DNA from: Gammaproteobacteria bacterium
GTDB taxonomy: Bacteria; Pseudomonadota; Gammaproteobacteria; Steroidobacterales; Woeseiaceae
Assembly (NCBI GenBank): GCA_018677555.1
Contig: JAHHOT010000218.1
Location: 1 to 33,091 of the forward strand
Direction: 5' to 3'
DNA length: 33,091 nucleotides
Part shown: positions 4,667-10,429 of the stretch, in pieces
Numbering within the stretch: position 1 is the first letter of the stretch
Layout of the letters: every line of letters begins with the position of its first letter
Position numbers and translations under genes: made by a program
Notes under the pieces: generated by a model
The model's database searches: none
What the model was told of the DNA's origin: nothing
Seen by the model: only the letters and a program-made list of their open reading frames with translations

Positions 4667-4946
4667 AGCATTCTCCTGAGGACGAAAAGAGAAGACCGCG
4701 TCTTGGCCCCCGGGACGTTGAGGTCAATCGGTGGAACGCGCTGAACAGCACGGTGCGCGGGGCGAGCTTGATTCTGCGCCAATGTTGAAAATTGTCAATG
4801 GTGTATTCTGTTGCCCTTGTCAGCGTAGTTGTCTTTACACACAGGTCGCCCTGTCATGCGGCCGGTCAGGGACTTCGCCATCCTATCGGGATTCTTGCCT
4901 GTAGCTGGCATGCACCCGACAATGAATGCAATGCCGGAGCAATATG

Positions 4947-5888
4947 ATGCCTATATGTGAAGCCGATCCGTGGCGAATGCAGTACTTCGAAGGCGTCGAC
5001 TGCCCCGATGACGTCAACATTCCAACTGAGGACGGCGACGCCTGGCGCTGGAACCCGGAGTACAAGTGGGTGTACGACAAGCTCGCGGTCGCCGAAACGC
5101 AGGACCTCGTCTGCGCGCCTCACGGCATCGATCCCGACGAGTTCCCGGTGTTCTCGAAACCCATTTACAACATGCGCGGCATGGGCGCGGGCAGTGGCGT
5201 CATGCGCACGCTCAAGGAATACCGGCACCGGCAGCGCCCGGGGCACATGTGGATGCAGCTGCTCTCCGGCGACCACGTCAGCACCGACGCGGCGGTGGTA
5301 GCGGGCGAGGTTGCATGGCAGCGGCACACGGTCGGCGAACCGCTCGACGGCGGAATGTTCGATTACTGGACCGTGCTTGCCGCAGCGAAGCCGGACATCG
5401 AGAACTACATTTCAAACTGGGTCAAAACCCATATGCCCGGGTACACGGGCATGCTCAACTTCGAAACCATTGGTGCACGTATCATCGAGGTGCACATGCG
5501 CTTCGCCGACCAGTGGCCCGACCTGTACGGCTCCGGCTGGGTCGAAGCGCTCGTACGTCTTTACGCCGACGGCGCCTGGCGTTTCGACGACTCCAAGCGG
5601 CGCGACGGCTACAGCGTGGTCCTGTTCGGCGCGCACGGTGTGCAGTACCGGCATCCACCGGCGGACCTGGTCGAACGGCTGCGCGCCACCGATGGCATAT
5701 CGAGCGTCCAGATCACCTATCACGAGGACCGGCCACCGGCGAGCCACTCCATGCCGCCCGGCGGCTTCCGGCTGGCGATCGTCAACACTGTCGATCTCGA
5801 GCTCGGGCGTCGCGCGCGCGAAGAACTGGCACTGAGTTTCTGGTCGACGCAGGAACTCGTGCAGCGTAGCCGGCGCAAACGCGCGTGA
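4947..5888 (+). CDS. ATP-grasp-fold protein of unknown substrate
   Basis: The 313-residue product shows the order of an ATP-grasp fold. YDKLAVAETQ (43-52) comes first. EFPVFSKPIYNMRGMGAGSG (65-84) follows, with Lys71 in the 'PV..KP' nucleotide-binding position. HMWMQLLSGDHVSTDAAV resembles the hinge strand. TGMLNFETIGARIIEVHMRF carries Glu173 and Glu181. The family's usual metal-binding Glu-x-Asn reads Glu-Val-His183 here, an unusual substitution. It could be a carboxylate-amine ligase or a degenerate, non-catalytic member. GGAG at 4936-4939 favours the ATG at 4947 (7 nt) over in-frame ATGs at 4944 and 4926. Its stop overlaps the GTG start of the hydrolase gene by 4 nt, so the two are translated together. 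The call rests on motif order alone. Confidence 0.65.
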   Translation: MPICEADPWRMQYFEGVDCPDDVNIPTEDGDAWRWNPEYKWVYDKLAVAETQDLVCAPHGIDPDEFPVFSKPIYNMRGMGAGSGVMRTLKEYRHRQRPGHMWMQLLSGDHVSTDAAVVAGEVAWQRHTVGEPLDGGMFDYWTVLAAAKPDIENYISNWVKTHMPGYTGMLNFETIGARIIEVHMRFADQWPDLYGSGWVEALVRLYADGAWRFDDSKRRDGYSVVLFGAHGVQYRHPPADLVERLRATDGISSVQITYHEDRPPASHSMPPGGFRLAIVNTVDLELGRRAREELALSFWSTQELVQRSRRKRA

Positions 5889-7894
5889 CGGACGACGTCG
5901 AGGACATCGAGAACGTCTGGATACCGATGCCGGACGGCTGCCGGCTGGCGGCGCGCATCTGGCGCCCCGTGGATGCGGCGGACAACCCCGTGCCCGCGTT
6001 ACTGGAGTTTCTGCCGTATCGCAAGCGCGACTTCATGCGGTTTCGGGATGAGCCGATGCACCGCTTTCTCGCAACGCACGGATACGCAAGTGTACGCGTG
6101 GACCTGCGCGGGTCGGGCGACTCCGATGGTCTGCTCGACGACGAGTACACCGAGCAGGAACACGCAGATGGTGAAGCCGTCATCGCCTGGCTCGCGGCCC
6201 AGCCCTGGTGCTCCGGCGACGTCGGCATGTTCGGTATCTCCTGGGGCGGATTCAATTCGCTGCAGATTGCCGCACGCCGCCCGCCCGCGTTAAAAGCAAT
6301 CATGGTGCTTTGCGCGGCCGACGATCGGTACACCGATGACGCCCACTACATGGGGGGCTGCCTGCTCACCGAGAACCTGCAGTGGGGCGCGATTTTCATG
6401 ATGAACCAGGCGTTGCCGCCGGACCCCGCGATCGTCGGCAACGGCTGGCGCGAGCAATGGCGCAAGCGGCTCGAGCACCTGCCGAACTTTCCCGAGCTGT
6501 GGCTCGAGCGCCAGTGGCGTGACGACTACTGGAGTGAGGGCTCGGTGCGTGACCACATCGATCGCATCGATATCCCCGTCTACGCAATTGGCGGCTGGGC
6601 CGATGCGTACTCGAACGCGGTGCCGCGACTCGTCGAGTCATTGACGTCGCCGTGCAAGGGCCTCATCGGCCCCTGGGCACATACCTTCCCGCACCTCGGC
6701 ATACCGGGGCCTGCCATCGGCTTTCTACAGGAAGCCGTGCGCTGGTGGGATCGCTGGTTAAAGGGCATCGACAATGGCATCGACCGGGAGCCGAAGCTCA
6801 GGGTCTGGCTGCAGGAAGCCGTGAAGCCTGAACCTCAATACGAGACGATGCCGGGCCGCTGGGTGGTCGAGGACAGCTGGCCGAGTCCGAACGTCGAGCC
6901 GCGGGAGCTGTTCCTGTCCGCCACGGGTTGCAGCGAGGCACCCGGCGAGCCCGAGGAGCAGATCCTGTCATCGCCCCAGATCTGCGGCATCCGCGGCGGC
7001 GAATGGTGCGCCTTCGGCAGCGATGGCGAGATGCCGCGTGACCAGCGCCCGGACGACGGTTTCTCGCTGACCTGGGATACGCGCCGGCTCGGCGAGCGGC
7101 TGGAGATTCTTGGCGCGCCGGTCGTGCGCCTGGTGCTGTCCTCGGATCAACCGACCGGCAACGTGATTGTGCGCCTGTGCGATGTGGCACCTGACGGCTC
7201 CTCGCTGCGCGTCACCTACGGCGTTTTGAACCTCGCGCACCGCGACGGGCACGCCTCGCCAAAGCCGCTGGAGCCGGGCCGACGCTACACCATCGACGTG
7301 CGCCTGAACGACATTGCGCACGCGTTTCCGCAAGGGCATCGCATCCGCGTCGCGGTGTCGACCGCCTACTGGCCGATCATCTGGCCGAGCAGCTCAGCCT
7401 GTTGCCTGCGCGTCGTCAGCGGCGAAAGCCGCCTGACCCTGCCGGTGCGCCCGGCGCGGGAAGAAGATGCGAGCCTGCGTCCATTCGAGGCACCGGCGAT
7501 GGCTGCCCGGCCCACCATCAGGCGCGTTCGTCATCACGAGTTCGTGCGCAAGCTCGCCGTTGATCTCGTGACCAATCGATTCCACTACGAGCTCAACGGC
7601 AGCGAATTTGACGACGCGAGTCTCGTGCACTTCGAGGACATCGACCTGCGTGTCGGCTACACGATCAGCAAGTTGTTCGAGATCGGCGAAGACGATCCGC
7701 TGTCGGCGGAGCAAACGATGCACCAGCGCGCAACACTGATGCGGGGCGACTGGCGGGTAACACTGCGTATGTCGATGACCCAGACCGCGACCGCCGACGC
7801 TTTTCACATCAAAGGGCGTCTCGAAGCCGAGGAGGGCGAGGCGCTTTTTCTCGAGCGCGACTTCGACGTCAGCGTGCCGCGACGCCTGGTCTGA
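5885..7894 (+). CDS. CocE/NonD-family serine hydrolase (X-Pro dipeptidyl-peptidase S15 type)
   Basis: A 669-residue protein of the S15/CocE family, with an N-terminal alpha/beta hydrolase and a C-terminal beta-sandwich (galactose-binding-like). The nucleophile elbow is GISWGG (Ser119). The acid is in GGWADAY (Asp240) and the base in IGPWAHTFPH (His266). Tyr45 in LPYRK matches the oxyanion-hole tyrosine known in cocaine esterase. The C-terminal domain starts near residue 310 (LRVWLQEA) and includes APVVRLVLSSDQPTGNVIVR and HRIRVAVSTAYWPIIWPSSS. The family cleaves acyl esters, amides or peptides and is usually cytosolic; no signal peptide is visible. The GTG start overlaps the upstream stop (GTGA). 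The length exceeds CocE (574) because of an extra region of about 130 residues after the sandwich, rich in beta strands. The substrate is not known. Pairing with an ATP-grasp protein suggests an amide or peptide bond (inference). Confidence 0.88.
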   Translation: MTDDVEDIENVWIPMPDGCRLAARIWRPVDAADNPVPALLEFLPYRKRDFMRFRDEPMHRFLATHGYASVRVDLRGSGDSDGLLDDEYTEQEHADGEAVIAWLAAQPWCSGDVGMFGISWGGFNSLQIAARRPPALKAIMVLCAADDRYTDDAHYMGGCLLTENLQWGAIFMMNQALPPDPAIVGNGWREQWRKRLEHLPNFPELWLERQWRDDYWSEGSVRDHIDRIDIPVYAIGGWADAYSNAVPRLVESLTSPCKGLIGPWAHTFPHLGIPGPAIGFLQEAVRWWDRWLKGIDNGIDREPKLRVWLQEAVKPEPQYETMPGRWVVEDSWPSPNVEPRELFLSATGCSEAPGEPEEQILSSPQICGIRGGEWCAFGSDGEMPRDQRPDDGFSLTWDTRRLGERLEILGAPVVRLVLSSDQPTGNVIVRLCDVAPDGSSLRVTYGVLNLAHRDGHASPKPLEPGRRYTIDVRLNDIAHAFPQGHRIRVAVSTAYWPIIWPSSSACCLRVVSGESRLTLPVRPAREEDASLRPFEAPAMAARPTIRRVRHHEFVRKLAVDLVTNRFHYELNGSEFDDASLVHFEDIDLRVGYTISKLFEIGEDDPLSAEQTMHQRATLMRGDWRVTLRMSMTQTATADAFHIKGRLEAEEGEALFLERDFDVSVPRRLV

Positions 7895-8915
7895 CGCGAT
7901 CCCAGGCTGTTTCGACGAGTGCTGCGAGCAGCTCGGCGTAGCTCCAGCCTGCGAACCCGGCCATCAGCGCGAGCTTGGCATCGTAGCCCCAGGCGGGGTT
8001 CGGGTTCACTTCCATGAGCTTGATGGTGCCATCGGCCGCCGCGCGAAAGTCGAAGCGGCCGTAGTCACGCAGGCCAAGGCGTTTGAACAACCGCTCGCAG
8101 CGGGCCCCGAGTTCGCGCTGGCCATCGGTAGACAGGCTTGCCGGGACGATTGCGATGTCGTTCCAGTACGGCGACTCGGGATCGGTCTTCGACTCGAACG
8201 ACAGGATGGGCGCGAAGCCGTCCGGCAGTTTCGAGAAATCGACTTCGAGCATTGGCAGCTGTCGAAATCCGGCGCCGGGGTTGCCGATCAGGCCAAGACC
8301 GAATTCGCGGCCGGGCAGGTATTCCTGGATCAGGACGTCACGGCCCGGCAACGCGTTCGCGAGCCAGCCGAGATAGTCGCGGGCTTCACGCTCGGTCGAC
8401 ACGACAGAATCTTTGGTGATGCCGACGCTGCCATCGGCCGTGTTCGGCTTGATGAGTGCCGGCAGCGCGGGCAAGGCGGCGTCGACGACCTCCGCAGCCG
8501 GCACGAAACGTTCCGCCGGCACGGCGATTCCCAGAGCCTCCGCGACCAGCCGCACGATCTGCTTGTCATAGCAGATCAGCATGCCGCGCGGCGTCGCACC
8601 GGTATACGGCACGCCCAGGAGTTCGAGCTGCGTCGCCACGTGAATCTCGAAATCCGGATTGTTAAAAAGTCCCGTGTCGCAGAAATTCACGACCAGGTCC
8701 GGGCCGAACGCCGCGATCGCGTCGAAGAGTCCGGCATGAGTTTCGATGATCGTGACGTCGAAGCGGTCCAGCGCGGCAAATGCCTCTCGCATCCTGGCGT
8801 GTACCTCGAGATCGGGCGGCCCGTAGCGCTGCTCGTGCTTGGTGGGGTCCGGCAGCGACGGATCACCCGTGACCACGGCAACCTTCACGGGAAGTGACGA
8901 TGTTGGTTTGGTAAT
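7869..8915 (-). CDS. ATP-grasp ligase, D-alanine-D-alanine-ligase-like
   Basis: A cytosolic ATP-grasp enzyme of about 340-348 residues. It begins [15 protein letters not shown] and has [20 protein letters not shown] (the 'D-K' start of the central domain), [20 protein letters not shown] (Lys-Pro and glycine loop), [19 protein letters not shown] (hinge) and [20 protein letters not shown], then PNPAW (metal-binding Asp, Glu and Asn). All the key ligands look intact, so it should join a carboxylate to an amine. It lacks the full Ddl length and sits away from cell-division genes, so a special peptide or amino-acid ligase is more likely than Ddl. Its start is odd: AGGAGG at 8925-8930 is followed 9 nt later by in-frame ATT (8913-8915), and the first standard start is GTG at 8886-8888. 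Its 3' end overlaps the hydrolase gene by 26 bp, tail to tail. Confidence 0.82.
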
Positions 8916-9079
8916 GGTCCGATTCCTCCTGGCGCAGGCGACCGGTGCGCGGACCTGCGCACTATCACCTCGTAGCATGTGCGGAATCAATACCTTTTTT
9001 GCCCGGGTTATCTTATTGTTCGGCGTGCAGGAATCGCGATAGAGGCAATCGCAACCTCGATTCACGCGGAATGGTCATT

Positions 9080-10429
9080 ATGAAATCGGTAGCTCAGATC
9101 ACGCCTATGGAAGCCGCCGCCCTTGTGCGCCCGGGCTGCAAGATGGTCGTCGGTGGTTTCGGCATGACGGGCCATCCGGTGAACCTGATGCATGCAATCG
9201 CAGAGACGGACGTAAGCGACCTCACCTATATCGGCAACAATGTCGGCGAAGCCGGGCTCGGCGGTGGGCGGCTGTTGCGTAACGGCCAGATTCGCAAGGC
9301 AATCGGCTCCTACTTCACGAGCAATCGCGAAGCGGTGGAGGCGGCCCAGGAAAAGCGAATCGAAGTCGAGCTCATGCCACAGGGGACGCTCGCGGAAGCG
9401 CTGCGTGCGGGCGGCGCGGGCATCGGCGGATTCTATACGCCGACAGCCGTCAATACGCCGCTGGCCGAAGGGCGCGAGATTCGCGAGATCGATGGCAAAA
9501 AAATGGCGTTTGTCGAGTCGCTGCGCGCCGATGTTGCGATCGTGCGAGCATGGAAAGCCGACACGGCAGGCAACCTGCAATACCGGATGACCGAAAGTAA
9601 CTTCAATACGGCAGCGGCGACCGCCGCCGATCTCGTTATTGCCGAAGTCGAACACATCGTCCCGGTCGGCGAGCTCGAGCCGGAGCACATCCACACGCAG
9701 TGTTGTTTCGTGGACTACCTCGTGCAGGCGTCTGTCGGCACGGACCTGCTGGGCTCGTCGGCCTCTGTTTCGGCGAGCAACAAGAAAACGGACGCGCAAC
9801 GTGAAATGATGGCACGAGCGGCGCTGGCAGAACTGGCGCCCGGCGACATCGTCAATCTCGGCATCGGGATTCCAACATTGGTCGCCGATCTGATCGACCC
9901 CGCGGACGGCATCATCCTGCACACGGAGAACGGCCTGCTCGGGGTCGGGCCCGAACCGGAAAGCGGCGGCGCCATGGACTACCCGGTCAACGCCGGCAAG
10001 ATTCCCGTGACGGCGCTACCCGGTGCGAGCTATTTCGACAGCGCGGCATCTTTCGCGATGATTCGCGGTGGCCACGTCGACGTTGCAATCATGGGCGGGT
10101 TGCAGGTTGACCAGCACGGTAACCTGGCCAACTGGGCCGTTCCGGGCCGGCCGCTCCTCGGTGTCGGCGGTGCAATGGATCTCGCCAGCGGCGCGAAAAA
10201 ACTGATCGTTACGATGACACATTGCGCACGCGATGGATCGTCCAAGGTCGTCAGAGAATGCAACTTGCCACTGACGGCTAGCGGCGTTGTCGATGTCCTG
10301 ATCACGGACCTCGGCGTATTTCGTTTTCAGGGCGGCGAAATGCTGCTCGAAGCGCTGATGCCTGGCGCGAGCCTCGAGGATGTCGCGGCCAATACCGATG
10401 CTGAATACACGACGAACCTGGCCGGATAG
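9080..10429 (+). CDS. Single-chain family I CoA-transferase (SCOT/acetoacetate type, alpha-beta fusion)
   Basis: 449 residues carrying both subunits of a 3-oxoacid CoA-transferase. The alpha half runs from about 1 to 230 with GGFGMTGHP (25-33), NNVGEAG and [12 protein letters not shown]. The beta half starts near 235 with [20 protein letters not shown], then GIPTLVADL and [11 protein letters not shown], where Glu283 is the expected CoA-thioester nucleophile. Other family marks are [35 protein letters not shown] and KLIVTMTH. It moves CoA from succinyl-CoA or acyl-CoA to acetoacetate or another 3-oxoacid. In most bacteria the halves are separate genes (scoA/scoB, atoD/atoA); fusion resembles the animal enzyme. 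The ATG at 9080 is preferred, with GCGGA 9-11 nt upstream; an in-frame ATG at 9071 is closer to that site. It is divergent from the ATP-grasp gene. Confidence 0.9.

Follow-up and report, generated by a model that had tools for sequence, protein, structure and literature searches.

Bacterial systems in which ligation is combined with a hydrolytic step include LysW-LysX-LysK, PuuA-PuuD and BtrJ-BtrG. In the N-acetylglutaminylglutamine amide (NAGGN) operon of Pseudomonas aeruginosa, asnO-ngg-peptidase (PA3459-PA3461), dipeptide synthesis and a peptidase are encoded together, the enzymes being an asparagine-synthase-type amidotransferase, a GNAT-type enzyme which also forms a peptide bond and a glutamyl aminopeptidase (PMC8070244). 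The cystargolide and belactosin pathways combine a methyltransferase, an ATP-grasp ligase and a hydrolase in one route (PMC11427300). Here we describe a set of three genes, A, B and C, at positions 4947 to 8915 of a 33,091-nucleotide stretch (the window) of contig JAHHOT010000218.1 from a Gammaproteobacteria bacterium (assembly GCA_018677555.1). These genes encode an ATP-grasp-like protein (A), a hydrolase (B) and a D-Ala-D-Ala-ligase-like ATP-grasp protein (C). Since A, B and C recur together in distantly related bacteria, they probably act on one small molecule, and we put it at about an even chance that they form a single conserved small-metabolite cassette, in which two ATP-grasp ligases and one hydrolase work on the same compound.

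The set resembles the NAGGN operon in being small and conserved and in pairing putative amide-forming enzymes with a hydrolase, whereas the NAGGN operon has neither a CocE hydrolase nor a Ddl-like ligase (PMC8070244). None of A, B and C matched the AsnO-type amidotransferase or GNAT-type Ngg families in Pfam or NCBIfam, and the locus was therefore rejected as a NAGGN system. The cystargolide and belactosin pathways are similar in that an ATP-grasp ligase and a hydrolase build a small peptide-like compound; however, adenylate-forming enzymes are central to them and a methyltransferase is present (PMC11427300), the latter not being seen in A-B-C loci. The composition of the set matches none of these five systems and appears to be undescribed. 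A search of an open-access library found no paper pairing ATP-grasp with CocE or peptidase S15, and the amidoligase paper of Iyer and colleagues could mention such a neighbourhood. This agrees with the preliminary description of the locus, which had stated that no system of this composition was known, although operons of a ligase plus a hydrolase as such are known, as NAGGN illustrates.

Layout of the locus and the ATP-grasp protein A

Gene A lies on the forward strand at 4947–5888 (313 amino acids; ATG at 4947, stop at 5886–5888), and an ATG at 4944 is an equally possible start. Gene B follows on the same strand at 5885–7894 (669 amino acids; GTG at 5885, stop at 7892–7894) and shares with A a 4 bp overlap, GTGA. 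Gene C is encoded on the reverse strand at 7869–8915, convergent with B, and the two overlap tail to tail by 26 bp (7869–7894). Both overlaps had been given in the preliminary description and are borne out by the coordinates. The likely start of C is an ATT codon at 8915 (8913–8930, reverse strand), 9 nucleotides after an AGGAGG (8930–8925), the next in-frame ATG upstream being at 8978. C was entered into searches and alignments from 8945, thus with some in-frame bases ahead of its start. All three genes are under purifying selection when compared to the nearest relative, locus L012 (L-numbers denote loci and G-numbers genomes): nonsynonymous and synonymous substitution rates (dN and dS, Nei-Gojobori) were 0.12 and 1.44 for A, 0.15 and 1.56 for B and 0.21 and 1.04 for C. 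No RNA or tRNA elements were found within the window, and a scan for promoters and terminators found signals no more commonly than in shuffled sequence.

Protein A was matched by no Pfam or NCBIfam model at E ≤ 1, and its profile matched no solved-structure sequence at E 10, so its fold assignment rests on the structure model. The AlphaFold2 model of A (predicted local distance difference test score, pLDDT, 84; predicted template modelling score 0.83) matched 435 chains in Foldseek at E ≤ 0.001, with RizA the best (1.8e−12) and PylC and BL00235 also among the nearest. With VIA-align the best match was GAR synthetase (Z 20.5, 284 residues aligned, 3.2 Å), and an L-amino acid ligase, biotin carboxylase and PurT were within 2 Z units of it. 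By its model, then, A has an ATP-grasp fold, as the preliminary description had proposed from the letters. The nearest folds are the L-amino-acid ligases RizA and BL00235, PylC, PurD, PurT and biotin carboxylase, a list which does not reveal the reaction of A. RizA, BL00235, BacD/YwfE and PylC, although among the nearest solved folds, are at most 20% identical to A and have longer chains (approximately 350–470 residues). We met no report of an assay of any A homologue, and no search by name was made, the family having none.

We counted the motifs of A in 41 sequences, comprising that of the window and 40 others which are 33 to 81% identical to it; the A of L024, which has an in-frame stop, was excluded from these counts and from the A tree. 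ATP-grasp enzymes have Glu-x-Asn as a metal-ligand motif, and the preliminary description had read Glu-Val-His at this point in A. This is correct (Glu181-Val-His183), and the family motif is Glu181-x-His183-x-Arg185, with His in place of Asn in 41/41 sequences; the strict Glu-x-Asn form is thus not found in A. The metal-ligand glutamates were otherwise kept (E173 in 41/41, E181 in 39/41), as were the lysines which, judged by position, would bind ATP (K45 in 40/41; K71 in 38/41, with Arg in the other three), and Arg185, Trp102, Gly108, Ser112, Asp114, Gly168 and Asn171 were invariant. Because the His is invariant, Glu-x-His is a trait of the family and not a sign of decay. The strict Asn is also not universal, since PylC, a ligase, has Glu-Ile-Asp at this position (in a weak alignment, E 0.98), so the assignment of A to the ATP-grasp fold stands.

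Only approximately 40 residues precede the first conserved ATP-grasp motif of A, Y-x-K, where its ATP-grasp relatives presumably have approximately 100, so most of the usual pre-ATP-grasp domain seems to be missing, although the model of A still aligns from residue 1 on to the start of its structural relatives. This apparent loss, together with the replacement of Asn by His, would suit a non-catalytic, regulatory ATP-grasp protein, a role which the preliminary description had raised. However, with the His fixed, the other ATP-site residues kept and PylC differing at the same place, we found this role to be unsupported and consider it highly improbable.

The predicted hydrolase B and ligase C

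B scored 256.2 bits against the CocE/NonD model TIGR00976 (cut-off 66.3) and contains the Pfam domains Peptidase_S15 and PepX_C, followed by a C-terminal region (approximately residues 515–669) without a Pfam match. Ser119, Asp240 and His266 were invariant in 11 A-linked B proteins and align with a Ser, an Asp and a His in cocaine esterase which we take to be catalytic there. B is therefore predicted to be a CocE/NonD (S15) hydrolase with the triad Ser119, Asp240 and His266, in line with the serine hydrolase of peptidase S15 fold that had been proposed earlier. Compared to other members of this family, such as cocaine esterase and alpha-amino acid ester hydrolase, B has the extra C-terminal region, and its A-linked members form a separate clade: the 19 testable A-linked B proteins grouped together (100/99) against 24 B-type proteins not adjoining A, several of which came from the same genomes as A-linked B. 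The short B proteins of L025 and L126 and second copies of the same locus were left out of this tree. In L026 (5761–7816) and L066 (10025–12045) B is split across two frames near residue 450; as the frame shifts differ between the two, assembly errors are possible. It should also be noted that two of the genomes represented in this tree, G800 and G960, each contain 14 matches to the B profile, a marked expansion of CocE-type hydrolases, several of them in tandem.

The profile of C matched only Ddl/Van ligases among solved structures at E ≤ 1e−10, and the nearest structure to its model (pLDDT 76.5) by Foldseek was a Ddl (2.1e−19). K128, K166, S173, R297, E312 and N314 were invariant in eight sequences. 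On sequence and model, C is a Ddl-fold ATP-grasp ligase which keeps the ATP and metal residues, and the active site can be regarded as intact, as had been suggested. C shares its fold and these residues with Ddl and VanA (D-Ala-D-Ala and D-Ala-D-Lac ligases), but where VanA has the segment N-T-F-P-G-M-T-S-Y-S, C has N-P-N-P-A-W-x-x-D-x-K. C is not a Ddl, because it fell far below every Ddl/Van cut-off listed (NF002378, 84.9 of 243 bits; TIGR01205, 79.2 of 245.65 bits) and because the genome has its own separate Ddl, at C24 (295 bits, cut-off 246). A role as a cell-wall or glycopeptide-resistance ligase was rejected on the same grounds.

Recurrence of the gene set

We surveyed the neighbourhoods of 42 A loci: that of the window, 13 from a search of genome contigs, seven from 274 genomes of the window's class (presumed Gammaproteobacteria) and, from 385 genomes of the class to which G400 belongs (presumed Alphaproteobacteria), a further 21. 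Many of these genomes are metagenome bins, whose completeness and naming are uncertain. The neighbouring genes were called crudely, as the longest or codon-position-scored open reading frames, and those named here were checked against a family library or grouped with a checked one. The class searches with the plain protein were more informative than a phylum search with the query A1, which scored no more than five candidates in each genome and found A in 2 of 398. A survey of plasmids with A found no match.

In 20 of the 42 loci B lay downstream of A in the same orientation, directly adjoining it in 19 and 3.6 kb away in L015. C was found near A in 15 loci, 13 of which also contained B, while in two (L067 and L071) it accompanied A alone. 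Among the 13 loci with all three genes, to which the distances given here apply, B and C were convergent in every case and were separated by −47 to +98 bp in 12 and by 4465 bp in L065, where a gene resembling those of dipeptide/glutathione substrate-binding proteins intervenes. L020, L022, L024 and L025 end inside or soon after B; in the genomes from which L020, L024 and L025 come, C turned up elsewhere, on other contigs. Of the 385 genomes, 21 have A, 16 have C and five have both, where 0.9 would be expected (Fisher p = 9e−4, relatedness ignored), and in all five C lay at most 8 kb from A on the same contig. The genes beyond A, B and C vary from locus to locus. The three genes thus recur together in other genomes. 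The preliminary description had named two outcomes that would speak against it, the absence of an ATP-grasp fold in A and the dispersal of the three genes in other genomes, and we checked for both and found neither.

The window grouped with its nearest relatives L012, L013 and L017 in one clade in the A, B and C trees. L017 is labelled a deltaproteobacterium and other members of the clades are labelled alphaproteobacteria, so the set seems, from these trees, to have moved between lineages, although most of these genomes are metagenome bins. The 3.6 kb which separates A from B in L015 holds (4939–8148, forward strand) a zinc protease (Zn_protease, PF05618), 7TM_transglut and ATPgrasp_ST, which is another ligase-and-peptidase set within the module.

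Several observations weigh against a single cassette. The functions of all three genes are read from sequence and predicted structure, C, being encoded on the other strand, may be expressed independently of A and B, and strain BAL199 (L018) has A and B with no match to C in its genome. A occurs without B in 22 of the 42 loci, beside egtB, a molybdopterin oxidoreductase, glutamine synthetase or epmA, and A therefore needs neither B nor C; the Fisher p values, moreover, take no account of how the genomes are related. The strand of C and the many genomes with A but without B and C would fit an explanation in which the three genes are neighbours through descent or transfer only and do separate jobs, C in cell-wall precursor synthesis, B as a general esterase and A in something unrelated. 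However, the arrangement recurs amid differing flanking genes with the closeness of A and B and the convergence of B and C kept, the A-linked B proteins form one clade, and C scores as no Ddl in a genome which has one elsewhere, so we consider this explanation very unlikely. As other lineages show this gene order and convergence too, the arrangement is more than chance.

The egtB gene (ergothioneine synthesis) lies head to head with A in 6 of the 42 loci (L023, L042, L069, L070, L074 and L076), five of them from one family. EgtD was found in 11 of 21 A genomes compared to 107 of 364 others (p = 0.027), with five of the 11 from one family, and was absent from 8 of 14 genomes with A-B loci, some of which are incomplete bins. 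The ergothioneine pathway was rejected as a general partner of A, since five of the six loci come from one family and several A-B genomes have no EgtD. A distant A subfamily (36–40% identity) is found directly downstream of a molybdopterin oxidoreductase, in L027 (8563–11637), L028 (8276–11267) and L030 (8384–11442), all on the reverse strand; the oxidoreductase is of the formate-dehydrogenase-alpha type in L028 and L030, and in L027 by similarity.

A candidate cassette for a small metabolite

The fold of A, the residues of C, the fold and residues of B and their linkage support part of the preliminary description. Its regulatory role for A is unsupported, and its make-and-break module is a candidate reading. 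From sequence and models we infer that A and C are active ligases in one pathway and that B acts on their product. A and C would use ATP to turn a carboxylate into an acyl phosphate, which would then be coupled to an amine (or hydroxyl), so that two ligations, or alternative ones, may build a small amide or peptide-like compound. B would later cleave this compound at an amide or ester bond, whether to strip off a temporary group or for recycling. Relatives of B from outside the module that close importer operons, described below, favour peptide-like or amide substrates.

Most relatives of C proved, unexpectedly, to be methyltransferase-ligase fusions. The A-near C proteins mostly fall in one clade (95/94), which holds 13 of the 15. 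The 385 genomes gave 18 C matches, of which 12 have an N-terminal methyltransferase domain and six have none, as called by a tblastn match of one methyltransferase domain; Pfam found both the methyltransferase and ligase domains in all four proteins tested (L071, L132, L134 and L138). Unfused C proteins were found near A or B in A-bearing genomes in four of the six cases (Fisher p = 9e−5 by genome, relatedness ignored); G856 is one of two genomes with an unfused C but no A, and L067 has A and an unfused C without an adjacent B. In L071, 25 bp separate the fusion from the A gene downstream of it; this genome has no match to B at E 1e−80. Relatives of the methyltransferase were found neither in A-B-C loci nor around the C copies on other contigs. 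As the genome with a fusion and A has no such B match, and no methyltransferase relative was seen in the A-B-C loci, B and the methyltransferase seem to stand in for one another beside A and C, which we offer as an idea drawn from few loci. The fusions, of approximately 620–740 amino acids, have no conserved neighbours and are scattered over the class of G400; they occur at L132 (9685–11895, reverse strand), L133, L134, L135, L136, L138–L141, L143 and L071 (6969–8993, forward strand), and in the window's class at L165 and L166.

A methyltransferase fused to most of these ligases, and in one case directly upstream of A, could also point to a protecting-group logic like that of cystargolide and belactosin: an ester would mask a carboxylate while the ligases build a peptide, and B, whose family includes esterases and alpha-amino acid ester hydrolases, would then unmask it. 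The cystargolide route does contain a methyltransferase and a hydrolase alongside an ATP-grasp ligase (PMC11427300). However, the methyltransferase and B were not found together, either in the A-B-C loci or, at E ≤ 1e−80 for B, in the genome with the fusion beside A, and the methyltransferase may act on nitrogen or carbon. We regard this explanation as quite unlikely.

B may instead act in catabolism, hydrolysing an amide, ester or peptide that the cell has taken up, with A and C religating the released acid or amine in salvage or detoxification. Two plasmid-borne proteins that are related to B (49% identity) but not part of the module, in Aureimonas and Paracoccus, close operons of ATP-binding cassette (ABC) importer genes, which encode a substrate-binding protein, permeases and an ATPase. 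A third B relative lies near ABC importer genes. The gene table is incomplete in Mesorhizobium, where few neighbours of B were seen, and none were available for Rhizobium BG6. These importer-operon ends and the gene like a substrate-binding protein between B and C in L065 are consistent with import. However, no importer is conserved beside A-B-C, where the neighbours vary by locus, and the A-linked B proteins form a clade separate from the importer-linked ones; this explanation is possible but doubtful.

The shared cassette could be taken further. Its product may belong to a new class of small amide or peptide-like metabolite. A would then represent a previously unrecognized family of ATP-grasp ligases that are short and have Glu-x-His at the metal site, C would be a Ddl-like ligase with methyltransferase fusions as its closest relatives, and what becomes of the one ligation product would depend on which of two alternative partners, B or the methyltransferase, is present. 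We hold this extended proposal only tentatively.

Next to the set in the window, a gene at 8945–10429 on the forward strand, divergent from C, encodes a coenzyme A transferase that unites the two 3-oxoacid CoA-transferase subunits in a single chain and was not seen adjoining the module in other loci. A role in anti-phage defence was rejected, as A, B and C had no match in a PADLOC search at E 0.01.

A is an ATP-grasp family which two standard family libraries miss, and the relatives of C point to a family of methyltransferase-ligase fusions. The gene set itself is compact and spans several proteobacterial lineages. As the folds of A, B and C are tractable, its product would be directly testable in vitro, and ligases of the A and C type may be useful for amide synthesis.

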